A stretch of DNA of 22,373 nucleotides, taken from positions 1 to 22,373 of the IMG/VR virus record IMGVR_UViG_3300007513_000220; one strand, 5' to 3'. The notes under the pieces were generated by a model that did not search any database, had not been told where the DNA came from, and saw only the letters and a list, made by a program, of their open reading frames with translations. Positions 7,758 through 20,627 of this stretch are shown here, piece after piece. Within the stretch, counting starts at the first letter, position 1, and each line of letters begins with the position of its first letter. This DNA is from a virus. Both the position numbers and the translations under genes were made by a program.

Positions 7758-7767
7758 AACTTATAAC

Positions 7768-7795
7768 GGGGGCGGAAACGCCCCCCAAATTTCTT
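7768..7795 (+). terminator. Hairpin terminator after the SSB gene
   Basis: A 7-bp perfect GC stem GGGGGCG (7768-7774) / CGCCCCC (7779-7785) closes a GAAA tetraloop, 10 nt after the SSB stop codon. A T-containing but imperfect tract follows (AAATTTCTT). It fits a partial rho-independent terminator or a 3'-end stabilising hairpin, as expected after a highly expressed gp32 gene. Confidence 0.75.
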
Positions 7796-7811
7796 CACAT
7801 ACATTACATAT

Positions 7812-8597
7812 ATGGATACCTGTATGGCAAAAAAGTCAAACGAATCAAAAGATTTCACTAGTGAGCTAATAAAATCGCTTAACAAAGAACATGGAACACG
7901 TGTTGCATACAATTTGTCATGTGATGATTCACCAACACATGTCAAGCGATGGATATCGACAGGGTCCCGACTTCTAGACTATATCTGTTCAAACAGGAGA
8001 GACGGCGGCTTACCAGAAGGAAGAATTGTTGAAATATTTGGCCCGCCGTCAATTGGAAAGTCGCATATCGCTACTCAAATTGCAGCGTCTACACAAAAGA
8101 TGGGCGGAATTGTAGTATATATCGACACAGAAAATGCAACAAGTGTAGAAAACCTTGCAATGCTTGGAGTTGACGTATCAAAGAGATTCGTCTATGTTGA
8201 TACACACTGCACGGAAGAAGTATTTCAGGTTGCAGAGTCTACAATCTTAAAGGCACAAGGGCTGGACAAAGATGTACCCATTACTATTATTTGGGATAGC
8301 GTTGCTGCTTCTTCACCTAAAGCAGAGCTAGATGGCGATTATGATAAGAATTCTATAGGTCTTAACGCTAGAGCTATATCCAAAGGAATGCGAAAAATTA
8401 CTGGTGTTATCGGTCAAACAAACACACTGATGGTATGTTTAAATCAGACGAGAACCAAGATAGGCGTAATGTACGGGGATCCCACGTGCGTCGACCCGTT
8501 TACGACTAAAATTAAAATTCGTTACGACGAAAACTCACTTTTCGCGGAGAGGTTCCGTGAATATAATGCCAAAGGAGATAACGATGGCACTAACTGA
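7812..8597 (+). CDS. uvsX: UvsX recombinase, N-terminal part fused to a short split-intein N fragment
   Basis: Residues 1-225 are the RecA/UvsX N-extein: Walker A GPPSIGKS (residues 77-84), ETENAT-like strand (YIDTENATSVEN), Walker B region TIIWDSVAASS, and the conserved NQTRTKIGVMYGDPT leading into loop L2 (compare RecA NQIRMKIGVMFGNPETT). At that point Cys (nt 8487) begins a 36-residue intein N fragment (CVDPFTTKIKIRYD...), which stops at TGA 8595-8597. The rest of UvsX lies in the next two segments. Start: ATG 7812, or ATG 7824 with a weak GGAT ahead; neither has a strong Shine-Dalgarno. UvsX drives strand exchange in recombination-dependent replication together with gp32 and the gp41 helicase encoded here. 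Confidence 0.9.
   Translation: MDTCMAKKSNESKDFTSELIKSLNKEHGTRVAYNLSCDDSPTHVKRWISTGSRLLDYICSNRRDGGLPEGRIVEIFGPPSIGKSHIATQIAASTQKMGGIVVYIDTENATSVENLAMLGVDVSKRFVYVDTHCTEEVFQVAESTILKAQGLDKDVPITIIWDSVAASSPKAELDGDYDKNSIGLNARAISKGMRKITGVIGQTNTLMVCLNQTRTKIGVMYGDPTCVDPFTTKIKIRYDENSLFAERFREYNAKGDNDGTN
8487..8594 (+). mobile_element. Split intein IntN of uvsX, 36 residues
   Basis: Begins with Cys1 directly after GDPT in the L2 loop and shows the block A pattern CVDPFTTKIKI. It ends before any block B (TxxH) motif, which is instead found on the C fragment as TAVH. This is the 'atypical' split position known from AceL-TerL and VidaL inteins (very short IntN), not the common ~100/40 split. Its last 14 nt overlap the start of the IntC ORF. 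Confidence 0.8.
8571..8586 (+). promoter_or_regulatory. Ribosome binding site and start of UvsX IntC inside the IntN ORF
   Basis: AAAGGAG (8571-8577) lies 6 nt before ATG 8584, inside the end of the IntN reading frame, whose stop is at 8595-8597. This decides the IntC start over upstream in-frame ATGs (8557, 8566) and implies translational coupling, giving near-equal amounts of both halves. Confidence 0.75.
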
Positions 8598-8946
8598 AAG
8601 AGAAATGACTTTTTCTGAATACGCAAGTATTTTAGGGATTGATGATTTTGAAACACCCTGCGAATACGATCTAACTGACGTTGGTACTATGATTGAAGGT
8701 CAAAATGGTTTTACACCTATGACCAACTTCGTAGTAAAACCAGCTGTAGATATTTCGTATTTATTAGGAGATTTAAACGGGACAGCTGTTCACAGAACAC
8801 TTGTTGATGGAAGATGGACAAAGCTAAGGGATAATCCGGCAGCCAAACAACTGCATGGGAAAATGAGTGTAGTTGATGTTTCGGTTCCAGATGGAAACGC
8901 TTACATTGCTAACGGCCACATTAACCATAACACAACTCCGGGTGGT
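8584..8946 (+). CDS. uvsX: UvsX split intein C fragment plus five UvsX residues, up to the intron 5' splice site
   Basis: From ATG 8584 the first 116 residues are IntC: FTPMTNFVVKPAVDISYLL, a block B-like GTAVHRTLVDGRW (TxxH = TAVH), and the C-terminal block VVDVSVPDGNAYIANGHINHN with the splice-competent His-Asn pair. The extein then resumes with Thr+1 as TTPGG (8932-8946), which joins to MYGDPT to recreate the RecA L2 motif GDPTTTPGG. Without splicing the frame would run into the intron and stop at 8974-8976 after ELLASQARV, residues that do not fit any RecA protein. After intron removal it reads on into the exon at 9269. Confidence 0.85.
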
Positions 8947-9268
8947 GAATTGCTTGCCTCCCAAGCACGAGTATAAAATGCAAACTCATCCCGTGAATTG
9001 TCTGGGACACCCTGAAGCCTTTATCACTACAACGTGGCGAGTAATTGCGAGCGTGATAGTTCAAAAAGATAGAGGATTGGGCAATCAGCAGCCAAGTCTC
9101 CTGGTGACAGGTTAAAGGTTCAGAGACTAGTGCATGGAGTCTTCAATGAAGATGGTAAAGCACCACGAGCGCGGGACAAAATATTAATGAGCGATCTAAA
9201 TAAGCTTTCACACAATAGTATTTTTGAAGATATAGTCCATGCTAGTTAGAAATAACCAGAACAGAATG
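8947..9268 (+). ncRNA. Group I self-splicing intron in uvsX, 322 nt, no ORF
   Basis: Core elements in order: P1 formed by exon GGGTGGT (8940-8946) with guide GCCTCCC (8956-8962), giving the required U-G wobble at the 5' splice site; the CCTGAAGCC region; the Q element GGGCAATCAGCAGCCAAG; GGTTCAGAGACTA (5' strand of P7) and AAGATATAGTCC (3' strand of P7). The intron ends in G at 9268. Joining 8946 to 9269 gives PGG-AAIPFHSSIRL, which aligns without gaps to RecA GGNALKFYASVRL. The boundaries are therefore fixed both by P1 and by protein continuity. It contains no homing endonuclease gene. Open frames inside it are incidental. Confidence 0.92.
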
Positions 9269-10728: not shown

Positions 10729-13167
10729 ATGTTACCTGGTGAAAATTCTCATCACTTTAGAAGTCATGGAAAGCAATTTCAAGAAAAGATCTTTCAATGC
10801 TTAATTAACGATCATCGCTGGGCTACACAAATGATCGAAGTAATGGAGCCCGGATTTTTTGATGTGCGATATCTAACATACCTTACCAGCAAGTACTTTA
10901 ATTATTTCGAAAAGTATAAATGCTTTCCGACAATGTCTTTGCTAGTAAATGTAGTCAGAGAAGATCTTTCTGACGGTAATGATTTGATATTGAGAGATCA
11001 GATAGTTGAATTTCTTCACAGAATGAAATCAAATCCCAACCCGGGTGATTTACACTACGTAAAAGACAAGTCTCTAGATTTCTGTAAACGTCAGGCATTT
11101 AAAGAAGCACTGGAAAAGTCTGTTGAGCTTATTCAAACTGATAAATTTGAAAGTGTGATTGACCTTATGAAAAATGCAGTAGCTGTTGGCATGCCGTCAT
11201 CGATTGGTCATGATTTTTTTGAAGACATAGAGGCAAGGTTTGTTGCATCACGACGAAGAGTTTGTCCGACAGGAATTTCCAAGCTTGACAGCGAAGAAAT
11301 ATTACAAGGCGGCCTCGGCAGAGGTGAATTGGGAGTAGTAACAGCAAACACAGGTGTTGGAAAGAGTCATTTTTTAGTACAGATGGGTGCAAATGCACTT
11401 AAGGCTGGAAAGTGTATAGTACACTATACATTCGAGCTAACAGAACATGCTGTAGGTCTTAGATATGACTCTAATTTATGTGATATTCCCAGTAATGAAG
11501 TACCAGGACATAAAAGCAAAGTAATAGAGAGATACAAAGATAATGACTTGGGTAAGCTAATTATAAAAGAATTTCCAACAGGATCAGCATCTGTCATAAC
11601 ACTAAGAAATCATATAGAAAAAATATCTATGAAGGGATTTGTGCCAAGTGTTGTAATTATTGATTATGCAGATGTTATGAGGGCTACAAGATCATATGAC
11701 TCTCTTCGGCATGAATTAAAACTAGTTTATGAAGAACTAAGAAATCTTGCTATGGATCTTAACGTCCCAGTTTGGACAGCTTGTTTTCATGGTGACACAG
11801 TAATAAGCAGCCCAATCGGGAAATTTAAGATAAGGGACATGGTGGGTAAATGTAACTTCCCAGTGTTTTCATACGATCATGAGCAGGGTAAAATAGTCTG
11901 CAAGACAGTAAAGTCTGTTTACAAATCTGGCGAAGGACAGGAGTTATGGAAAGTAACGTTGGATAATGGAAATGAGGTTATTGTTACACCCAACCATAAA
12001 TTTATGCGTAGAAATGGCGAATATGAAGAGTTGCGAAATTTGAAGATTGGTGATTCTTTAATGCCGTTCAACAGACGAATTAGAGACAATAGAAAGCAAA
12101 TTTATCTAAATAATGGCAAATGGGAAAATCAGTGCAAGATTGTTGCGGAGTGGAAATTTGGTGAAATTCCAAAGTATCATCAAGTTCATCATATTGATAT
12201 GAATAAATTTAATGATCATCCAGATAACCTCGAGGTTCTTACAATTTCTGAGCACTATAGAGTTCATGGAAAAGAAAGCTGGAATAAAGATAACCCGGGC
12301 GGCATAGAACATCTTCGCGAAGTATATTTAGAAAGGATGAAGAGCAACAACCCGATGTTTAACCCGAAAACTCGCGAGAAAATGGCACAGTCTAGAAAGG
12401 GCAAGTGTATGGGTGATGATAATCCAATGAAGCTTGATGAAAACAGGAAAAGGGTTTCTGATGCACTAGAAAACAGTCAAGCTTTTAGTGATTATATAAA
12501 AGCTGTACCAGAAAAGATGAGAAAGGTTTGGAAAGATAGGCCAGATGAACAACCAAATAAAATGGTAACTAAATCTGAAATTTCTAAATGGGGATCATCA
12601 CGTGATGATAGAATCATTCAACATCAAGAGCTTGCGCTGCTATGTCAAACATACAAGGAGTTTATAAAGAAGGCTAAGCATATTCCACTGCGAAGCAGTA
12701 ATAAGCGACAAGTTTGGAAGAATAAAAATCACAAGATCGTAAAAATTGAGTTTTATGGTCATGACGACGTATATAACATGGAAGTTGAAGATTTGCACAA
12801 TTATGCACTTGATGCAGGAATAGTTGTTAAGAATTCTCAGGCCAACAGAGACTCAGCAAATTCAGACATTGTCGGCCTCGAGAACATGTCAGAAGCATAT
12901 GGTAAAGCAATGGTTGCTGATTTTGTTGTTTCACTATCTAGAAAAGCAACAGAAAAAGCTGATGGCTCTGGTCGACTTTTTATAGCTAAAAACCGCGCCG
13001 GAAAAGATGGTTTGGTATTCCCTATTCACATTGACACCGCGTTATCTAAGATCGAAATACTGGACGGGGATCATATGACTTTGAATGAGGCGGTTCGTCA
13101 AGATGACAATGCAATGAAGTCATTGCTTAAGCAGAAGTGGAAAGAAATGAACGGAAAAGAAGATTGA
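10729..13167 (+). CDS. dnaB: Replicative DNA helicase (DnaB/gp41 family) with an in-frame HNH intein
   Basis: 812 residues, of which about 461 are extein, close to T4 gp41 (475). The N-terminal helical domain is followed by Walker A TANTGVGKSHF (Lys about residue 212), Walker B VVIIDYAD (Asp about 312), then NVPVWTA, where the intein interrupts. After it SQANRDSANSDIVGLENMSEAYGKAMVADF (given here in pieces: SQANRDS, then ENMSEAYGK) restores the DnaB motif that senses nucleotide (compare SQLNR). It is the hexameric motor of the replication fork. ATG 10729 has AGGA seven nt upstream; ATG 10714, overlapping the exonuclease stop, is the alternative. The intein must excise to give an active helicase. 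Confidence 0.9.
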   Translation: MLPGENSHHFRSHGKQFQEKIFQCLINDHRWATQMIEVMEPGFFDVRYLTYLTSKYFNYFEKYKCFPTMSLLVNVVREDLSDGNDLILRDQIVEFLHRMKSNPNPGDLHYVKDKSLDFCKRQAFKEALEKSVELIQTDKFESVIDLMKNAVAVGMPSSIGHDFFEDIEARFVASRRRVCPTGISKLDSEEILQGGLGRGELGVVTANTGVGKSHFLVQMGANALKAGKCIVHYTFELTEHAVGLRYDSNLCDIPSNEVPGHKSKVIERYKDNDLGKLIIKEFPTGSASVITLRNHIEKISMKGFVPSVVIIDYADVMRATRSYDSLRHELKLVYEELRNLAMDLNVPVWTACFHGDTVISSPIGKFKIRDMVGKCNFPVFSYDHEQGKIVCKTVKSVYKSGEGQELWKVTLDNGNEVIVTPNHKFMRRNGEYEELRNLKIGDSLMPFNRRIRDNRKQIYLNNGKWENQCKIVAEWKFGEIPKYHQVHHIDMNKFNDHPDNLEVLTISEHYRVHGKESWNKDNPGGIEHLREVYLERMKSNNPMFNPKTREKMAQSRKGKCMGDDNPMKLDENRKRVSDALENSQAFSDYIKAVPEKMRKVWKDRPDEQPNKMVTKSEISKWGSSRDDRIIQHQELALLCQTYKEFIKKAKHIPLRSSNKRQVWKNKNHKIVKIEFYGHDDVYNMEVEDLHNYALDAGIVVKNSQANRDSANSDIVGLENMSEAYGKAMVADFVVSLSRKATEKADGSGRLFIAKNRAGKDGLVFPIHIDTALSKIEILDGDHMTLNEAVRQDDNAMKSLLKQKWKEMNGKED
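11782..12834 (+). mobile_element. Contiguous intein with HNH/NUMOD3 endonuclease in the helicase
   Basis: 351 residues from Cys1 (CFHGDTVISSPIGKFKI) to VVKN, with Ser+1. Block B is VTPNHKFM (TPNH). The C-terminal block is VYNMEVEDLHNYALDAGIVV-KN, with Lys rather than His before the terminal Asn. The inserted nuclease has an HNH motif of the VHHIDMN...NLEVLTISEHYRVH type (12184-12267), followed by a NUMOD3-like DNA-binding stretch (NNPMFNPKTREKMAQSRKG ... DDNPMK). The insertion point, TA|SQANR in the helicase core, is a highly conserved active-site loop, as usual for inteins. Confidence 0.88.
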
Positions 13168-13183
13168 TATATAAGGAAGGCAA

Positions 13184-14032
13184 GTGACTTACTCTTTTAG
13201 TGACGTATACGAAAAAACATTAATATATTTTGATAATGATGAACTTGCTGCAAGTGTTTTTCCAACAAAATATGCCCTAACAGACAAAGAAGGAAATCTA
13301 CACGAGGAGACACCAGATGATATGCACCACAGAATGGCAAAAGAGTTCGCAAGAATAGAGGCAAACTACAAAAACCCGCTTTCTGAACAAGAGATCTATG
13401 ATATGTTCTCATCATGGGAAGTTGTCCCGCAGGGCTCCCCAATGTCAGGAGTAGGAAACCCATATCAGATTCAGTCATTATCAAACTGTTTTGTAATCGA
13501 CAGCCCAGAAGATAGCTACGCCGGAATACTACATACCGATCAAGAGCAAGTTCAGATTATGAAACGTCGTGGCGGCGTAGGCTTTGATATCTCGAAGATC
13601 CGCCCGAAAGGAATGGCTACATCAAATGCTGCTCGTACCACTGATGGTATTGGTATTTTTATGGAGCGTTTCTCTAACTCTACGAGGGAAGTAGCGCAGG
13701 GTGGCAGACGTGGTGCACTTATGATTTCAATCAGCTGTTTTGTTGGTGATACTTACGTGTTGACAGAAGATGGCTGGATGAGAATTGATAAAATTGTCAA
13801 TGAAGAATATTCAGGAAGAGTTTGGACACATGAAGGCCTAAAACCAATAACAGCATTTCAGAAATTTGAGAATAGAGAAGTGTTTGAAATAGAGTGTGAA
13901 AATGGCAGAAAGATTACTGTCACACCTGATCATGAGTTTGTTGTAAAAAATATAGTAACAGGCGAGGAATATCTCAAGCCGATTATCGAAGTCGACCCAG
14001 ATACTGAAGAATTAGTTTTCTATGATGAGTAA
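13184..14032 (+). CDS. nrdJ: Class II ribonucleotide reductase NrdJ, fragment A, with split-intein N half 1
   Basis: Residues 1-184 are the reductase N-extein; the remaining 98 are IntN1. The extein shows the substrate-site Cys in QSLSNCFVIDSP, the segment MKRRGGVGFDISKIRPKG and the loop GGRRGALMISIS, characteristic of B12-dependent reductases. The splice junction SIS|C matches the conserved SI..HPDI strand, which resumes at 15219 as CNHPEIETFINIK. The start is GTG 13184 with AAGGAAGG ahead, 16 nt after the helicase stop. NrdJ reduces ribonucleotides to deoxyribonucleotides by an adenosylcobalamin-generated thiyl radical. The fragment cannot act alone: the catalytic Cys/Asn/Glu are on fragment B. 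Confidence 0.9.
   Translation: MTYSFSDVYEKTLIYFDNDELAASVFPTKYALTDKEGNLHEETPDDMHHRMAKEFARIEANYKNPLSEQEIYDMFSSWEVVPQGSPMSGVGNPYQIQSLSNCFVIDSPEDSYAGILHTDQEQVQIMKRRGGVGFDISKIRPKGMATSNAARTTDGIGIFMERFSNSTREVAQGGRRGALMISISCFVGDTYVLTEDGWMRIDKIVNEEYSGRVWTHEGLKPITAFQKFENREVFEIECENGRKITVTPDHEFVVKNIVTGEEYLKPIIEVDPDTEELVFYDE
13736..14029 (+). mobile_element. NrdJ split intein 1, N half (98 residues)
   Basis: Starts CFVGDTYVLTEDGWMRID (block A) and has block B as TPDH (13922-13933). It ends at a TAA stop after LVFYDE. The fragment is strongly acidic (23 Asp/Glu against 10 Lys/Arg by my count), while its partner IntC1 is basic, the charge complementarity seen in classic split inteins such as DnaE. Confidence 0.88.
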
Positions 14033-14084
14033 ATATTTACTTTTTTAGTGCACTGATGTATATTTTTTATATGAGGCACACAGA

Positions 14085-15101
14085 ATGTTAATTAATTTTG
14101 AGTTAGCTAGAGTTGTAAAGAACCACAAGACAGAAAAAGAAATATTTGTAATAATGATGAATGAGATAAAAATTGATGAAAGTATTTTTAACCTGAGGAA
14201 ATCAGCAACATCAAATATTTCCAGAGTCATTGGTAAACAGAGTTTTGAAGAATTAATGAAGAAATCAATATTAAGAAAACATGATCTAATTTGCAAAGCT
14301 AGTACATGCAGCAATCGTGTACATTTTAACTTTCATCGCAAGAAAATGACTGTCTATAGCTATTGTTCACATAGCTGTTTTATGAATCGGCCAGATCGTC
14401 TAAGACGTATAGAAGATAATAAAACTAGTATATGCCGCTACTGTCATTCAAAATTTAAAACCAAAGAAGTGAGACAAAAATCTCATAGAGAAAATGCTCT
14501 ATGTCATAAAATAGAATGTAGAGATAGAATGAACGACGATCGATCACAAAAAATAAAAGAAAAACACTGGACAAAAACTCACCCACATGCGAAAGAAATA
14601 AGAAGCCGCATGGATAAATCACGATCAGTTGCATATCAAAAAAAGCGAGAAGCAGGAAACCCTGTAATTCCCTGGAACAAGGGCAAGACAGGTATTTACT
14701 CTAAAGAAACAATAGAAAAAATTAGAAACGCAACAATTAAACAGCTCGAGAATCAAGTTTTTAAAAAAACGTCTATTGAAAAAACAGTTGAAAATTTTTT
14801 GATCGAGTCAGACATAAAATACAAATATTCTTTTATCTTAAATCGAAGACAGTTTGATTTTATTTTGCTAAACTCTAAGTGCGTTGTTGAATGCGATGGT
14901 GATTATTGGCATGCAAATCCAGCGATATATGAGCGCTTGGGAAGGGAGCCATCTGAAAAGCAAAAAATGAAGCGTCTAGATGACAAGATTAAAAATAAAA
15001 TAGCAGAAGATAATGGATATAAGATTTTAAGATTTTGGGAACATGATATTAACAATAATTTTGAGTACGTAAAGAACGCAATACTGAATGTGGAAAAATA
15101 A
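14085..15101 (+). CDS. Free-standing Vsr-like homing endonuclease 1 in nrdJ
   Basis: 338 residues. Two Cys/His pairs-of-pairs look like zinc fingers (CSNRVHFNFHRKK...YCSHSC, then CRYCHSKF...CHKIEC). A NUMOD3-like segment follows (PWNKGKTGIYSKETIEKIR). The C-terminal third is a Vsr/EDxHD-type nuclease: RRQFDFILLNSKCVVECDGD, then YWHANP, and further on DNGYKILRFWEHDI. This family was described with 'fractured genes' from marine metagenomes. It sits between IntN1 and IntC1, exactly where an in-frame endonuclease would lie in a contiguous intein. ATG 14085 has GAGG eight nt upstream. It probably cuts nrdJ alleles lacking the intein at this site; inferred. Confidence 0.85.
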   Translation: MLINFELARVVKNHKTEKEIFVIMMNEIKIDESIFNLRKSATSNISRVIGKQSFEELMKKSILRKHDLICKASTCSNRVHFNFHRKKMTVYSYCSHSCFMNRPDRLRRIEDNKTSICRYCHSKFKTKEVRQKSHRENALCHKIECRDRMNDDRSQKIKEKHWTKTHPHAKEIRSRMDKSRSVAYQKKREAGNPVIPWNKGKTGIYSKETIEKIRNATIKQLENQVFKKTSIEKTVENFLIESDIKYKYSFILNRRQFDFILLNSKCVVECDGDYWHANPAIYERLGREPSEKQKMKRLDDKIKNKIAEDNGYKILRFWEHDINNNFEYVKNAILNVEK

Positions 15102-15218
15102 ATGAATAAAACGACATCAAAAATACTAAAGATAAACCCAAAGGGAAGAGAAACTGTATATGATTTTACAGTCAAAGATACACACAGGATTCTTGCAAAT
15201 AATTTTTATACGTCAAAT
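15102..15218 (+). mobile_element. NrdJ split intein 1, C half (39 residues)
   Basis: MNKTTSKILKINPKGRETVY then DFTVKDTHRILANNFYTSN, with extein Cys+1. Block F (VYDFTVKDTHRILANN) is textbook. The penultimate residue is Ser (TSN) instead of the usual His that assists Asn cyclisation, a known but minority variant. The fragment is basic (7 Lys/Arg against 3 Asp/Glu). Confidence 0.88.
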
Positions 15219-16469
15219 TGCAACCACCCAGAAATAGAAACATTCATCAATATCAAACGTGATCTCACAAAAGTAACCGGTGCAAACATCTCAGTCAGGC
15301 TCAATGATGAATTCATGCACGCGGTTAAAAATGATGAAGAATTCCAGCTACAATGGCCAGTAGATTCAGATAACCCTGAAATAACAAAAACTGTTAGAGC
15401 TACTGATATCTGGGATCAAATAATCGATTCAGCTCATCAAATGGCAGAGCCCGGAATCTTCTTCTGGGATAACGTAATCAACAACTCTATTCCAGATTGC
15501 TATGCAGATTTAGGCTTCAAAACGGTTAGCTCAAATCCTTGTGGCGAGATAATTTTGAGCCCACTAGACAGTTGCCGGTTGATGGTGGTCAATTTAGCCA
15601 AGTTTGTGCAAAAACCATTTACCAAACATGCACGCTTCAATTGGGATAAATTTTCATCAACAGTTCAAAAATCTCAACGTCTAATGGATGATCTGATTGA
15701 TTTAGAAATAGAGCAAGTAGATAAAATAATAAACAAAATCCAAGAAGATCCAGAGCCTGAAAACGTAAAACAAATAGAGCTAGAGCTGTGGCAAGGAATC
15801 AGAGAGCAGGCCCTGAAAGGACGTAGAACAGGGCTCGGGGTAACTGCTGTTGGCGATACACTGGCAATGCTAGGCCAAAAATACGGTTCAGAAGAATCCG
15901 TTACTACTATAGAAAAAATCTACAGGCATCTCGGGGTAAACGCTCATATCTCTTCATGCATTCTCGCTGGCGAGCGTGGCACGTTCCCAATATTCGACCA
16001 TACAAGAGAAATAGGAAATAAGTATTTAGAAAAAATACTAGCAGCTGATAATGAGCTAGGTGCCCTGTATTCTAAACATGGTCGCAGAAATATTGCACTA
16101 ACTACGACGGCGCCAGCTGGTTGCTTGGTTGCCGAAACAGAGGTCAAGACAGACATCGGAGTAATGACGCTGGAAGATATTTTCTATGAAAACGATATTG
16201 ATATTAATGACCTGCAAAGCGAGTCACGGATCTGGTTTGAAGCAACTAAAGAAATAAATGTTTTTGATGTTCATGGACAAGCGCATTCAATAACTAGATT
16301 ATTTTGGAATGGAAAATCAGAAGGAAAAATTATAAAAACATCTGCTGGTAATGAGATAAATTGTAGCGATGAGCACAAGATGCTGATTCTGTCAAAATGC
16401 GGAAAATTTGGAATCTGGAAACGAGCAGATGAGATCATTCCTGGTGACAAAATTGTAAAAGTTTCATAA
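15102..16469 (+). CDS. nrdJ: NrdJ fragment B (catalytic core) flanked by IntC1 and IntN2
   Basis: Three parts: IntC1 (39 residues), reductase extein (301 residues, 15219-16121) and IntN2 (115 residues). The extein opens CNHPEIETFINIKRD, carries the active-site block SSNPCGEI (15525-15548; radical Cys, plus Asn and Glu) and SRLMVVNLAKF-like strand (CRLMVVNLAKF), the GRRTGLGVTAVGDTLAML segment, and ends RRNIALTTTAPAG. Resumption occurs at 17961 as SVSTLTQTTSGIEP. Both ends of this polypeptide must be trans-spliced, so it is a double-ended intein precursor. The start codon follows the endonuclease 1 stop with no gap, so its translation probably depends on ribosomes finishing the endonuclease. 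Confidence 0.9.
   Translation: MNKTTSKILKINPKGRETVYDFTVKDTHRILANNFYTSNCNHPEIETFINIKRDLTKVTGANISVRLNDEFMHAVKNDEEFQLQWPVDSDNPEITKTVRATDIWDQIIDSAHQMAEPGIFFWDNVINNSIPDCYADLGFKTVSSNPCGEIILSPLDSCRLMVVNLAKFVQKPFTKHARFNWDKFSSTVQKSQRLMDDLIDLEIEQVDKIINKIQEDPEPENVKQIELELWQGIREQALKGRRTGLGVTAVGDTLAMLGQKYGSEESVTTIEKIYRHLGVNAHISSCILAGERGTFPIFDHTREIGNKYLEKILAADNELGALYSKHGRRNIALTTTAPAGCLVAETEVKTDIGVMTLEDIFYENDIDINDLQSESRIWFEATKEINVFDVHGQAHSITRLFWNGKSEGKIIKTSAGNEINCSDEHKMLILSKCGKFGIWKRADEIIPGDKIVKVS
16122..16466 (+). mobile_element. NrdJ split intein 2, N half (115 residues)
   Basis: Starts CLVAETEVKTDIGVMTLEDI directly after APAG. Block B reads SDEH (16365-16376), Ser in place of the usual Thr. It carries an acidic insertion (YENDIDINDLQSESR) before the second strand and ends KIVKVS at a TAA stop. 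Confidence 0.85.
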
Positions 16470-16480
16470 GCTTCACTATA

Positions 16481-16509
16481 GCTCCATATTTATATGTGAA
16501 TGCTGGAGC
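16481..16509 (+). promoter_or_regulatory. Hairpin masking the ribosome site of endonuclease 2, promoter-like loop
   Basis: GCTCCA (16481-16486) pairs perfectly with TGGAGC (16504-16509). The 3' arm contains the GGAG Shine-Dalgarno for GTG 16514. The 17-nt loop holds the AT-rich TATTTATATG. In a read-through transcript the ribosome site would be paired; a transcript starting within the loop would leave it free. Confidence 0.5.
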
Positions 16510-16513
16510 AGTT

Positions 16514-17833
16514 GTGAAAAAAAGAAATATAAATAAAAAATTATATCCAACAAAATGGAATGAGTTTTCTAATTCATTTGACGAGAATGAAGCGATCGAA
16601 CAATACTACAAATTTTGTAGATCGTTTTGTTTAGAAAAATATCAATTAAAATTTGGAACAGAAGAGGGCGAGCGCTTGTTTTACGAAAAGAAAAACTCTA
16701 TACGCCGCGGAATGTCACTTGAAAATTGTGTAGCAAGGCACGGAAAAGAAAAAGGCCAGCATGCATACGACGAATGGAAAAAAGGTGTTAAAAATACAAG
16801 GCAAAACTTTATTCGAAGACACGGTCAGAAAAAGGGTGTAGCAATGTGGGAATCATACGAAATGAATAGAGATAAGCTTCTTGTTTCATATAATGAAGAC
16901 CGCCCTAACGATCAATTTAACACAAAGATAGAATATTGGTTGAAAGCAACTGGTGGTGACCAAGCGCTAGCAGAGGTGTTACTGTCAAAACGTCAAGCAA
17001 CATCAACACTTGAAAAACTCATTCAGATTTATGGTATCAGTGAAGGGCCAAAAAAATATAAAGAATGCAGTGCTAAAAAAGCCACAAGACTCATTGATTT
17101 TATTGAAAAATACGGTGAGAGTGAAGGCGTTCAAAGGTATGAAGAAAGAAACGCAAAAGTTGTTTATTCGAATTCTTTATCTGGAATGATTGCGCATCAT
17201 GGTGAAATAGAAGGGAAACGCAAATACCAAGATGCTTGTAGAAAAAAAGCGCACACGTTAGAAAACTTTATCAAACGCCACGGCGAAATCTCTGGAAAAG
17301 AAAAATGGGATAAATATCTTGCTAAAAAAAGTTTTGCAGGGACATTGCTTGGGTATATTGATAGGTACGGGCCTGTTCTCGGTAAGACAAAATTTGATGA
17401 GCGTATAAAAAACTGGCAAGGTGATTTTACACAAATTAATTATTCAAAAATATCATTTGAATTTTTTACAGAAGTTGAGAAAAAACTTAAAGAGCAGAAC
17501 TGCAATGTAACGATGTTGTTTGGAGAAAGTGAAAAAAGGTTTTATGTTAAAACGCATGACAGAAAAGTAATTCAACCCGATTGCTTGATTGAAAATATTA
17601 AGCTTGCTATTGAGTTCTACGGTGATTATTGGCACAAAAATCCAAAGATATACGAGGGTAAAGCTGCAGTAGAAAGAAATGAAGAAGATATACGTCGAGC
17701 ATTGATCCTAAAAGAGCAGCATTCAATTGATACGATCGTAGTTTGGGAAAATGATTACAAAACGAACAAAGAAGAATCAATTAACAGAATAAGTGATATA
17801 ATAATAAAAAGGATAAGCAATGGAGACAATTAA
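16514..17833 (+). CDS. Free-standing Vsr-like homing endonuclease 2 with tandem DNA-binding-like repeats
   Basis: About 439 residues. Roughly nt 16652-17420 encode about eight degenerate repeats of 26-36 residues with core (R/K)(H/Y)G-x-x-x-G-x-x-x-(Y/W), for example RHGKEKGQHAYDEW, KYGESEGVQRYEE and RHGEISGKEKWDKY, mostly helical and basic. The C-terminal region has the same Vsr-type signature as endonuclease 1: VIQPDCLIENIKLAIEFYGD then YWHKNPKIYEG, and later TIVVWENDY. GTG 16514 with TGGAG five nt upstream is the best start; GTG 16496 is also in frame. It lies between IntN2 and IntC2 and overlaps the IntC2 ORF by 14 nt. The repeats are probably its target-recognition part; inferred. Confidence 0.82.
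   Translation: MKKRNINKKLYPTKWNEFSNSFDENEAIEQYYKFCRSFCLEKYQLKFGTEEGERLFYEKKNSIRRGMSLENCVARHGKEKGQHAYDEWKKGVKNTRQNFIRRHGQKKGVAMWESYEMNRDKLLVSYNEDRPNDQFNTKIEYWLKATGGDQALAEVLLSKRQATSTLEKLIQIYGISEGPKKYKECSAKKATRLIDFIEKYGESEGVQRYEERNAKVVYSNSLSGMIAHHGEIEGKRKYQDACRKKAHTLENFIKRHGEISGKEKWDKYLAKKSFAGTLLGYIDRYGPVLGKTKFDERIKNWQGDFTQINYSKISFEFFTEVEKKLKEQNCNVTMLFGESEKRFYVKTHDRKVIQPDCLIENIKLAIEFYGDYWHKNPKIYEGKAAVERNEEDIRRALILKEQHSIDTIVVWENDYKTNKEESINRISDIIIKRISNGDN
16652..17420 (+). repeat. Protein-level tandem repeats (YG-x3-G-x3-Y type) in endonuclease 2
   Basis: About eight copies of a 26-36 residue unit, spaced irregularly by one longer linker after the third copy. The conserved positions are a His/Tyr-Gly pair, a second Gly four residues on, and an aromatic residue four residues later. 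Nucleotide identity between copies is low, so the repeats are old. Confidence 0.75.
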
Positions 17834-17960
17834 TCTAGAAAATGTAGCATTTGACACGGTAGATATTTTATCGATAGAAAATACAAAAAATGTGACAATG
17901 GACATTGAAGTCGCTGGCACACATTATTATACTCTTGGAACAGGTGAAGTATCACACAAT
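17820..17960 (+). mobile_element. NrdJ split intein 2, C half (47 residues)
   Basis: METINLENVAFDTVDILSIE leads to block F VTMDIEVAGTHYYTLGTGE and the canonical VSHN end, with Ser+1. By my count it is acidic (8 Asp/Glu, 1 Lys), the reverse of the usual basic IntC, and IntN2 is also net acidic. This pair therefore does not follow the opposite-charge rule seen for pair 1. Confidence 0.88.
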
Positions 17961-18578
17961 TCAGTCTCAACTCTCACGCAAACGACATCAGGAATAGAGC
18001 CTGCATTCATGCTCAAATACACCCGTCGCCGTAAAATAACACACAGTGAAAACGTTGAAGCAGATTTCATCGATGATATGGGAGATAAATGGGTTGAGTA
18101 CGATGTATATCATCATGGTGTAAAACAGTGGATGGAAGCTACAGGGCTGACTGACATTGAACAATCGCCATATTTTGGCGCAACTGCTAATGATCTTGAC
18201 TGGAAACAAAGAGTAAAAATACAAGCAGCTGCTCAAAAATGGATCGATCACTCAATTTCAAGCTGTGTTTCCAAAGATACACTATTTGAAACTGACAGAG
18301 GGCTGCTTTATTATGATGAAATTGTTGACATAAATAATACAAATGAAGGCTTCAAAGAGTATATTGGTAATATTTCTTTAAAGACAGAAAGTGGTGAATT
18401 TATAATGCCTGATTATATTTTTAATAATGGCATCAAGGATACACTGGAGATAGAATTTTCTGAAGGGAGTGTCCTGAATTGTACAGAGAATGAGCTTTTA
18501 CGATGCATTATAGGTGATCGTTTAGTTTGGGTACGAGCTGATGAGCTTGAAGAAGGAGATGTTATTTTTAGAAGATAG
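17820..18578 (+). CDS. nrdJ: NrdJ fragment C flanked by IntC2 and IntN3
   Basis: IntC2 (47 residues), extein of 101 residues (17961-18263) and IntN3 (104 residues). The extein SVSTLTQTTSGIEPAFMLKY ... AAAQKWIDHSISS is the class II reductase segment after the catalytic barrel strand (compare TGTIS...GIEP and W.D.SISKTINLP). More than half of the polypeptide is intein. ATG 17820 has AAGGATAA ahead and lies inside the last codons of endonuclease 2 (stop 17831-17833), so translation is coupled. Like fragment B it needs two trans-splicing reactions. The short central extein would be difficult to fold on its own, which suggests splicing accompanies folding; inferred. Confidence 0.9.
   Translation: METINLENVAFDTVDILSIENTKNVTMDIEVAGTHYYTLGTGEVSHNSVSTLTQTTSGIEPAFMLKYTRRRKITHSENVEADFIDDMGDKWVEYDVYHHGVKQWMEATGLTDIEQSPYFGATANDLDWKQRVKIQAAAQKWIDHSISSCVSKDTLFETDRGLLYYDEIVDINNTNEGFKEYIGNISLKTESGEFIMPDYIFNNGIKDTLEIEFSEGSVLNCTENELLRCIIGDRLVWVRADELEEGDVIFRR
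18264..18575 (+). mobile_element. NrdJ split intein 3, N half (104 residues), unusual block B
   Basis: Starts CVSKDTLFETDRGLLYYDEI after the conserved SISS. The block B position reads TENE (18483-18494), with Glu where nearly all inteins have the His that assists the first N-to-S acyl shift. It ends ADELEEGDVIFRR at a TAG stop. The remaining fold pattern is intact. Confidence 0.83.
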
Positions 18579-18589
18579 TCCAATAAAAG

Positions 18590-18632
18590 CTTGATCATGC
18601 ACACTTATATACATACATACTATGATCAAGGG
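18590..18632 (+). promoter_or_regulatory. Hairpin masking the ribosome site of endonuclease 3, promoter-like loop
   Basis: A perfect 9-bp inverted repeat: CTTGATCAT (18590-18598) with ATGATCAAG (18622-18630). The 3' arm runs into the AAGGG Shine-Dalgarno (18628-18632) for ATG 18640. The 23-nt loop contains CACTTATATACATACATAC, an AT-rich, promoter-like element. The layout matches the described control of T4 I-TevI, where read-through RNA hides the ribosome site and a promoter inside the element relieves it; the function here is inferred. Confidence 0.6.
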
Positions 18633-18639
18633 ATAAATA

Positions 18640-19638
18640 ATGGGCTGCAAATCTGAAAGACATATAAAACTAATGAAAACTTGCTTATCCAGACACGCAA
18701 ATCAAACAAGAGAATTTCTCGATAATATTTCGATCGAAGAACTTTCATCGCTTTATAGCGAGTGGAAATCTCAAAAAACAAAAGCAGCCTACAGCAAGTG
18801 GAAAAAGTCAAATGATGAACGTGAAGAAAGCTTTTCCGAAAGATCTTTACGAGGTATGAGAAGCTGGGCTAGAAAAAACTGCAAAAAAGACCTAACTGAT
18901 ACTGAAGCATATGAGTTCGCAAAAAGCAACATGAAGCCTACCAATCATGGCTTGTTAATTAAACAGGGTTTGGCAAAAAAACATGGTGATAAAATATCTG
19001 ATGAATTTAGGCGAAGAAGAATACAGGCTATAGCAAACTATTTTGATGTGTCAGCAGCAAACGTGACAGAAGAGATGAATAAAGAGTTTTCTAAAAAGAA
19101 TGCAATAAAATCAACTGCACTAGAATGGAAAACATCTCATATTAGAAATATTGGTAAAAACATCGACGAAATGTCACCAGAAGAGATTGAAATAGCATAT
19201 TCAGAATATCTAAGCTTACGATATAAAAGAGAAAGTTTAGATCACAACAATGGCTACAAAAGATCAAAAAAAGGGTGGTTTAAATTTGCAACAGGCGTAG
19301 ATGTGTATTGCAGGTCATCATGGGAATTTAAATTTTGTAATATTGTGAATGAAAAAATAATCCAGCGTCCAGATCTTACTGCTAGATCACCAGATCGGAT
19401 TATGTATTTTTGCACAGCAACAAAGGTAAACAGGCACTATTATCCAGATTTTTTACTTACTTCTCCGCTTGGAAAGCTAGTGGTAGAAATAAAACCACTA
19501 AGCAAAACAACAGATCAAACAAATGTAGATAAATTTTTGGCTGCATCAAAGCTGCATGGTAAAGATTTTGTGGTTGTTACTGAGGAAGAACTTTTTCGTG
19601 ATAGCAAAATACAAGAAATAATTGAAAGGATATTGTAA
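18640..19638 (+). CDS. Free-standing TnsA/gp4-like PD-(D/E)XK endonuclease 3 in nrdJ
   Basis: 332 residues. The N-terminal ~210 residues are basic and helical, with no domain I recognise. The C-terminal domain shows VYCRSSWEFKFCNIV, then RHYYPDFLLTSPLGKLVVEI followed by KP, and later KFLAASKLHGKDFVVVTEEE. The spacing RSSWE...PDF...VEIKP...VVTEEE is that of TnsA-type nucleases and the T4 gp4 head-completion/DNA-end family, with catalytic Asp (PDF) and Glu-x-Lys (EIK). This is a different nuclease class from the two Vsr-like enzymes in the other gaps. ATG 18640 has AAGGG ahead, masked by a hairpin. The stop shares one base with the start of fragment D. Confidence 0.8.
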   Translation: MGCKSERHIKLMKTCLSRHANQTREFLDNISIEELSSLYSEWKSQKTKAAYSKWKKSNDEREESFSERSLRGMRSWARKNCKKDLTDTEAYEFAKSNMKPTNHGLLIKQGLAKKHGDKISDEFRRRRIQAIANYFDVSAANVTEEMNKEFSKKNAIKSTALEWKTSHIRNIGKNIDEMSPEEIEIAYSEYLSLRYKRESLDHNNGYKRSKKGWFKFATGVDVYCRSSWEFKFCNIVNEKIIQRPDLTARSPDRIMYFCTATKVNRHYYPDFLLTSPLGKLVVEIKPLSKTTDQTNVDKFLAASKLHGKDFVVVTEEELFRDSKIQEIIERIL

Positions 19639-19925
19639 TGGATTTTTTAAAAAACGGTAGATTACCATCAAAAATTAGAAGCTCAAAGAAGGCTGCGCTG
19701 ATGTTTCTTGTCGATATAGAGCAAGAATTTCGCCGCGTAGATGTAACAAATCCCGATATTTACACTTTGGCTAATTGGTGTGAGTATCCGTTCTTTGGAA
19801 ACGAGCTTCATACGTCAAATGTATCAATTGTAAAAAGTATAAAAAGTGGAAAAACTATAAGCACGTACGATTTTTCTGTTCCTGGCGCTCACAATTATAA
19901 TGCATCAAGCGTTATTTGTCATAAT
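19638..19925 (+). mobile_element. NrdJ split intein 3, C half, with a 60-residue N-terminal extension
   Basis: The last ~35 residues are a normal IntC (VSIVKSIKSGKTISTYDFSV through SSVICHN, Thr+1). Ahead of it lie about 60 extra residues (MDFLKNGRLPSKIRSSKKAA and onward, through TLANWCEYPFFGNEL) that typical split IntC fragments of 35-50 residues do not have. They may be a relic of an internal endonuclease or linker, or an added DNA- or protein-binding piece. Confidence 0.82.
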
Positions 19926-20627
19926 ACTTGTAATTTACCAGAAGACGCAACTCCAGAAAATGTCCGTGAAATCTATGAATCTGCTTGGGAATCTGGTTGT
20001 AAAGGTTTCACTGTTTATCGTGAGGGGTCACGTTCAGGTGTCTTAATCGACAAATCAAAACAAAAAGACAGCACCAAGTTCACATCACAAAGCGCACCAA
20101 AGCGCCCTGACGTTCTTAAGTGTGACATACATCATGCATCAATACAGGGTGAAAGGTGGACAATACTAGTAGGCTTATATGATAAAAAACCTTATGAGCT
20201 ACTTGGGGGACTTTCAGAGCTAATAGAGATACCTAAGAAATATCGATCAGGCTATATCGTCAAACACCCACGAAAAACAATGAACAGCATTTATGATCTC
20301 CACTTCGGAGAAAATGGAGACGAAGTAATAATTAAAAATTTGGTAAAGGTTTTCAACAATCCAAATTACTCATCATTTACAAGAGTGATATCTCTTGGTT
20401 TGCGCCACGGAGCTCCTGTTCACTATGCTGTAGAGCAGCTTCAAAAAGATAAAGATGCTGATATGTTTTCATTTAGCAAGGTAATAGCACGCGTGCTCAA
20501 GAATTACATAGACGATGGGACAAAATCATCTGAAAGAAAGTGTAGCAATTGTGGAGCAGAAGGGACAATGGTGTTTCAAGAAGGTTGCGTATCATGCACA
20601 GCATGCTCATCATCAAAATGTGGGTAA
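19638..20627 (+). CDS. nrdJ: NrdJ fragment D (C-terminal part) with IntC3
   Basis: IntC3 (96 residues) precedes a 233-residue reductase C-extein that begins TCNLPEDATPENVREIYESA, recreating SISS|TCNLPE (compare SISKTINLP). WESGCKGFTVYREGSRSGVL follows, the usual phosphate-binding end of the barrel. The tail carries CSNCG and CVSCTACSSSKCG-type Cys clusters (20539-20624), used for re-reduction of the active site and likely zinc binding in class II enzymes. Fragments A-D together give about 819 reductase residues, a normal class II length. ATG 19638 overlaps the endonuclease 3 stop by one base. Confidence 0.9.
   Translation: MDFLKNGRLPSKIRSSKKAALMFLVDIEQEFRRVDVTNPDIYTLANWCEYPFFGNELHTSNVSIVKSIKSGKTISTYDFSVPGAHNYNASSVICHNTCNLPEDATPENVREIYESAWESGCKGFTVYREGSRSGVLIDKSKQKDSTKFTSQSAPKRPDVLKCDIHHASIQGERWTILVGLYDKKPYELLGGLSELIEIPKKYRSGYIVKHPRKTMNSIYDLHFGENGDEVIIKNLVKVFNNPNYSSFTRVISLGLRHGAPVHYAVEQLQKDKDADMFSFSKVIARVLKNYIDDGTKSSERKCSNCGAEGTMVFQEGCVSCTACSSSKCG

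Follow-up and report, generated by a model that had tools for sequence, protein, structure and literature searches.

A class II ribonucleotide reductase gene of a phage, divided into four by three split inteins, each gap holding an endonuclease gene

The window analysed here is the entire viral record IMGVR_UViG_3300007513_000220 of IMG/VR, 22,373 bases long. In its second half the gene of a ribonucleotide reductase (RNR), nrdJ, is spread over four open reading frames (ORFs). The reductase parts of these ORFs (the exteins) are separated by the halves of three split inteins, and an endonuclease gene (EN1, EN2, EN3) lies in each gap. The features are given below, with the exteins taken from the ORF listing and its translation; names such as L014 denote loci gathered for comparison.

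13184-13735, +: nrdJ extein 1, 184 amino acids, GTG start, in an ORF running to 14032; Pfam RNR domains and gap-free match to intact nrdJ
13736-14032, +: split intein 1, N-half, 98 amino acids, Cys1, block B TPDH, stop codon included; N-half at the same site of L014 61% identical
14033-14084, +: gap before EN1, predicted hairpin pairing the GAGG ribosome-binding site; z score -2.5, Shine-Dalgarno pairing 0.75
14085-15101, +: EN1, 338 amino acids, DUF559/Vsr-like (Pfam DUF559 1.1e-7); relative in the same gap of L014
15102-15218, +: split intein 1, C-half, 39 amino acids, ends TSN; 74% identical in L014
15219-16121, +: nrdJ extein 2, 301 amino acids, carries NPCGE; Pfam and intact-nrdJ match
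16122-16469, +: split intein 2, N-half, 115 amino acids, block B SDEH, stop codon included; N-halves at this site of L094, L095, L097 and L098 40-45% identical
16470-16510, +: gap before EN2, predicted hairpin with GGAG in the stem and ATATTTAT in the loop; z -2.0
16496-17833, +: EN2, 445 amino acids, start uncertain; Vsr-like with repeated helical motifs, by alignment and Foldseek
17820-17960, +: split intein 2, C-half, 47 amino acids, ends SHN; 41-57% identical in relatives
17961-18263, +: nrdJ extein 3, 101 amino acids, intein at both ends; Pfam and intact-nrdJ match
18264-18578, +: split intein 3, N-half, 104 amino acids, block B TENE without His, stop codon included; L332 and L333 have orthologues, likewise with Glu
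18579-18639, +: gap before EN3, predicted 10-bp hairpin in which most of the ribosome-binding site is paired; z -2.2, Shine-Dalgarno pairing 0.75
18640-19638, +: EN3, 332 amino acids, TnsA-like (Pfam Tn7_TnsA-like_N 3.6e-6); the same gap of L332, L333, L261 and L392 holds orthologues
19638-19925, +: split intein 3, C-half, 96 amino acids, made of an extension of about 58 and a C-intein of about 38 ending CHN; extension kept in L332 and L333, related in L261 and L392
19926-20627, +: nrdJ extein 4, 233 amino acids to 20624 and then the stop codon, C-terminal Cys motifs; Pfam and intact-nrdJ match

The four exteins join without a gap into a protein of 819 residues. This protein aligns uninterrupted to the intact nrdJ genes L002-L012 with 90 to 49% identity (L002 90%, L003 and L004 84-85%, L005-L007 76%, L012 49%), and its residues 96-628 match the Thermotoga class II RNR 1xje with E=1.5e-56. 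An earlier note, made by a model from the letters of this DNA, had read the four pieces as a complete class II reductase, and the extein boundaries that it gave prove exact. The motifs SNCFV, NPCGE and DSCRL are present, with the catalytic Cys and NPCGE intact. Judged by its barrel domain, NPCGE and redox Cys, and by its closest similarity, which is to adenosylcobalamin-dependent NrdJ, the reductase is class II. The catalytic Cys and NPCGE are on different pieces, thus a single piece could not be active alone. The junctions in the window (marked by a slash) read RRGALMISIS/CNHPE, TTTAPAG/SVST and DHSISS/TCNLP, and the empty sites of L002 at the same three positions read ISID/IRHPE, APAG/SVST and SISS/TCNLP. 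At the first position the flanking residues differ on both sides, and the +1 residue is Ile in L002 and Cys in the window, as splicing requires. No close nucleotide relatives were found among named phages. Are the breaks caused by a group I intron? This was ruled out, as Rfam finds no intron in the nrdJ gaps and its single intron match in the window lies in uvsX.

The N-inteins begin with Cys at 13736, 16122 and 18264, and the C-inteins, each on a later ORF, end with Asn before a +1 Cys, Ser and Thr respectively, so that the intein residues named in the earlier note are seen at all three junctions. Intein 1 has Cys1, TPDH and the end YTSN/C; intein 2 has Cys1, SDEH and SHN/S; intein 3 has Cys1, TENE and CHN/T. 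The first two carry everything expected of class 1 (Cys1) inteins, namely Cys1, the block-B His, the C-terminal Asn and the +1 nucleophile. Similarity of the window inteins to solved inteins is weak and falls at the expected positions. The ORF structure also bears out that both middle fragments have an intein half at each end. The three N-halves share just 21-28% identity pairwise, and such low identity suits orthogonality of the three pairs.

Each gap holds a complete endonuclease ORF of 332-445 amino acids, as the earlier note had it, assigned by family, alignment and fold. The likeness it drew to the Vsr-like endonucleases of known fractured genes holds for EN1 and EN2 but not for EN3. EN1 matches DUF559 and Vsr. 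EN2 can be aligned around EFYGDYWH with its homologues, Vsr-like proteins from other gaps, and its model resembles Vsr (1vsr) at a Foldseek probability of 0.99, though the E-value, 0.11, is weak. EN3 hits the N-terminal domain of TnsA, scoring above the curated Pfam cutoff, so that a Vsr-like assignment was ruled out; its AlphaFold model was poor and was left out of the analysis. A single-sequence scan gave no relatives of EN3, which were later recovered through the C-half alignment of its site, and no member of the family was found in bacterial and archaeal genomes. The endonuclease stop and the start of the C-intein ORF abut or overlap by 0, 14 and 1 nucleotides, and likewise in many relatives.

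Do the same insertions occur in other phages? About 470 loci were gathered by scans with exteins, endonucleases and C-half alignments, and a profile of intact NrdJ was then run on them. Four insertion sites recur in nrdJ among these loci; numbered by the spliced protein, they are a=184, b=292 (NP/C), c=485 and d=586. Intact syntenic nrdJ genes, up to 90% identical, are without all three insertions of the window, thus the empty sites are directly visible. The gene order gp41 - nrdJ - protease-like gene is kept in L002, L004, L005, L258, L261, L264 and L336, so that these are real alleles of the locus, either empty or filled in part. In L014, L258, L259, L261 and L262, site a holds a split intein that has an EN1 relative between its halves. 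At site c, one with an EN2 relative is found in L094, L095, the L097 group, L098, L174 (a 462 kb GenBank phage), L180 and L190. At site d, one with an EN3 relative is found in L332 and L333; L261 and L392 carry a variant displaced by one residue, and L212 has in the same place a single-chain intein that, on reading its sequence, we take to be LAGLIDADG-like. The modules occur separately (a in L258 and L262; c in L094, L095, L174 and L180; d in L332) and in double splits (a+b in L014; b+c in L190 and two further assemblies; a and the shifted d in L261, with a single-chain intein at b). By this distribution the three units are separate mobile modules, present at the same sites in other phages, alone or otherwise combined.

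After removal of near-identical copies there are 156 near-complete nrdJ genes, of which 116 are uninterrupted and 22 carry one split intein or more; 4 carry at least two, and one, the window, carries three. These counts are not population frequencies, because the sample was built by searching for such elements. Thus the claim that a triple fracture goes beyond the usual case stands, with the refinement that the window is the extreme of a family including the double-split nrdJ of L014, L190 and L261. The search of other assemblies for the same ORF order, which the earlier note had proposed, recovered each break elsewhere but not the exact triple arrangement a second time. No second nrdJ was found in the 298 kb record of the double-split L014. 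The crAss-like L175 and L176, whose nrdJ is broken, have no intein halves at the break and were left uncounted. Two further loci should be noticed. L112 (1026-7615) has a divergent nrdJ with apparently two split and two single-chain inteins, and an in-frame TAG in one stretch. At L097 (2-2898), and similarly at L099, L110 and L114, a DnaB-like helicase gene beside the split nrdJ is apparently itself interrupted by a split intein, and a Vsr-like gene lies between the halves.

Compared with L002, the exteins show ratios of nonsynonymous to synonymous differences (pN/pS) of 0.08-0.17 and of the corresponding substitution rates (dN/dS) of about 0.03-0.12, with dS near saturation for exteins 3 and 4; the exteins are strongly constrained by purifying selection. 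For the intein halves pN/pS is 0.27-0.52, below 1 with synonymous sites saturated, and in comparisons of inteins and endonucleases these sites are at or close to saturation. The guanine plus cytosine content of the inserted DNA is 0.28-0.36, against 0.40-0.43 in the comparison. The DNA identity of nrdJ to L002 is patchy, about 100% at residues 70-145 and 265-310 (window 13391-13618 and 15459-15596) and 60-90% elsewhere, which looks like a sign of recombination among these phages.

How would one enzyme come from these four ORFs? It is very probable, as far as the sequence can tell, that the known fractured-gene arrangement is stacked here three times and that three trans-splicing reactions rebuild one NrdJ. 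This gives a scenario in which three different homing modules inserted themselves into three highly conserved sites of the nrdJ of a tailed phage, each module consisting of a split intein and, between its halves, a free-standing endonuclease gene. The four nrdJ ORFs would presumably be translated off one operon, each N-intein would pair solely with its own C-intein, and three independent class 1 trans-splicing reactions would yield the 819-residue reductase E1-E2-E3-E4. The earlier note had the four polypeptides joined in order; the order would indeed be fixed by the matching halves, but not by timing, as the reactions could take place in any temporal sequence. From known intein chemistry, the middle pieces, which begin with a C-half and end in an N-half, would cyclise on any cross-reaction of these two halves, so that orthogonality would be required and not optional. 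The endonucleases would cut empty nrdJ alleles in co-infecting phages and repair would then copy the module in; what is seen of such homing is the distribution of empty and filled sites. Hairpins would mask the endonuclease starts, probably up to the point at which a promoter within the hairpin yields a shorter transcript.

Several observations weigh against trans-splicing at all three junctions. Splicing is inferred from sequence alone, and the record, being a fragment, leaves room for a second RNR in the same phage. Intein 1 has Ser instead of His before its final Asn, a residue that its relatives share. The C-half of intein 2 is acidic (-7) like its N-half (-6), so the usual charge attraction is absent. 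A further point is intein 3, in which Glu takes the position of the block-B His (TENE). Inteins naturally lacking this His are a very small group with compensation, and in many inteins it is essential (PMC6333167), thus splicing at the third junction, the least certain of the three, should not be taken for granted. It might be that two junctions splice while the third is slow, cleaving or conditional, so that extein 4 is joined poorly or conditionally. The orthologues in L332 and L333 have TPNE, and L261, L392 and L212 have TxxH. However, the Glu is kept in three diverged phages with intact exteins, which suggests a working, compensated site, and extein 4 itself is under purifying selection (pN/pS 0.17), so we consider a failing third junction unlikely.

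Another explanation is that the pieces assemble unspliced, the inteins being relics or merely cleaving. There is precedent in phage Aeh1, whose split NrdA functions unspliced, and in split gene 43 products, which co-purify (PMC2988022); the lost His of intein 3 would fit as well. On the other hand, Cys1, the terminal Asn and the +1 nucleophile are retained at every junction and in relatives, and pN/pS of the intein halves stays below 1, though at saturated synonymous sites. What is more, the sites lie in conserved barrel motifs, where intein tails of about 100 amino acids should hinder folding. Unspliced assembly is therefore quite improbable. An assembly chimera or a dead, decaying gene, as might be suspected of one metagenome contig whose exact triple arrangement has no second copy found, is hardly credible, since the reading frames are all open, other contigs show each break again in the same architecture with related intein and endonuclease, the double-split type of L190 is present in three separate assemblies, and the extein dN/dS against L002 is low.

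Intein 3 is also distinguished by its C-half. The extension of about 58 amino acids accompanies Glu in L332 and L333, yet L261 and L392 bear a related one and retain the block-B His. In one alignment it corresponds loosely to the part of the L212 intein preceding block F, and it may be the remnant of an older endonuclease domain. A bolder proposal is that intein 3 belongs with its orthologues to a natural group of split inteins whose active site is arranged in a new way, with Glu for the block-B His and the extension as a helper domain on the C-half, and that serial fracture makes NrdJ assembly a controllable step in the phage cycle and not a neutral burden. We regard the two parts together as rather doubtful.

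There is a further question of how the endonuclease genes are controlled. Folding is stronger in all three window gaps than in shuffled sequence (z scores listed above). The Shine-Dalgarno sequence is mostly paired in gaps a and d, and in gap c GGAG is in the stem, although the start codon there is uncertain. Of the 20 gaps put to this test, z is below -2 in 14, whereas structure is lacking at most control gene starts; one exception is the uvsX start region (7767-7825), which folds strongly with z -3.5. With the start codons as chosen, a strong hairpin was not seen in the site-a gaps of L014, L259, L261 and L262 nor in two other gaps, one in L180 and one at site b of L190, thus the hairpin is not universal. 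The predicted hairpins would sequester or contain the likely ribosome-binding sites of the endonucleases, which resembles the control of I-TevI in T4. There a hairpin hides the ribosome-binding site, and a late promoter is so placed that late transcripts cannot form it (PMC2988022); I-TevI lies within a group I intron, whereas the window element is a split intein and its promoter is putative. A T4-type late promoter, TATAAATA, was not found upstream of ORFs in these loci, and ATAYTTAT turned up instead. It is present in 9 of the 20 gaps against 0.42 expected in shuffles (maximum 3 in 1000), a contrast somewhat flattered because the motif was picked after inspecting some of the same gaps. Among the window gaps, only gap c has the exact motif, and those at a and d depart from it by one mismatch. 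Independently of the gaps, ATACTTAT was counted in the phage record of L014: of its 15 copies there, 8 precede ORFs (22-fold), though one of these 8 belongs to the gap itself. Genes with matches to tail sheath and head-tail adaptor families follow two of the 8. This placement is as expected for a late promoter, which the motif may be.

What is new in this arrangement? Fractured genes with split inteins and free-standing endonucleases (gp41-1, NrdJ-1, IMPDH-1) were reportedly described by Dassa et al. in 2009, each said to be broken in two. As in those, the window has a conserved phage DNA-metabolism gene broken within its continuous coding region, N- and C-inteins on successive ORFs, and an endonuclease gene between the halves, with the Vsr-like family represented; unlike those, it has not a single break but three different split inteins, four pieces and one TnsA-like endonuclease. 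RNR genes with multiple introns or inteins are already known (PMC3653736). For example, nrdE of Brochothrix phage A9 is also in four ORFs, but it is interrupted by three introns and an intein-encoded endonuclease and not by split inteins (PMC3653736). The split PolB intein of the named phage MIJ3 follows the same plan, with a single break and an HNH gene between the halves (PMC6892783). In Aeh1 the mobE insertion splits nrdA, likewise an RNR gene that is split by an endonuclease gene and still functional, but there is no intein and the pieces remain separate (PMC2988022). Several orthogonal split inteins have been made to join many fragments in one pot (PMC7090010); those chains are artificial, and the window would be a natural version with three inteins. 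The openly readable literature that was searched describes no natural gene interrupted by several split inteins, and such an absence is not proof. Within that literature the stacking of split-intein fractures in one gene is new, while single fractures are already established.

Gene fracturing, it seems, can be stacked, with one enzyme made from four polypeptides through three natural split inteins. The three inteins would be a ready-made candidate orthogonal set for protein engineering, and since cross-talk would cyclise or misjoin the middle pieces, selection for orthogonality is directly testable. The series of empty, single, double and triple alleles lets the accumulation of fractures be traced across phages. 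The hairpins suggest the same kind of control for intron-borne and split-intein-borne endonucleases, and the His-less intein 3 probes how far intein chemistry may vary.

The 22 kb fragment holds in total five inteins and one intron across three neighbouring genes. The gp41 (DnaB-like) helicase gene has at 11782-12834 a single-chain intein of 351 amino acids with an HNH domain, absent from all 12 relatives checked. In uvsX (RecA-like, 7812-8931) there is apparently a further split intein, cut near the N end of the intein, with an N-half of 36 amino acids (8487-8594) and a C-half of 116 (8584-8931) on overlapping ORFs, with no endonuclease between; against solved structures it gave no meaningful match. 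The C-half is 98% identical in L002 and the downstream uvsX extein just 62%, which suggests recent transfer. A group I intron (RF00028, E 1.9e-16) occupies 8937-9259, and the downstream uvsX exon resumes at about 9260. The intron starts 5 nucleotides past the C-intein, thus uvsX is interrupted twice at almost one conserved spot, by the intein and by the intron.
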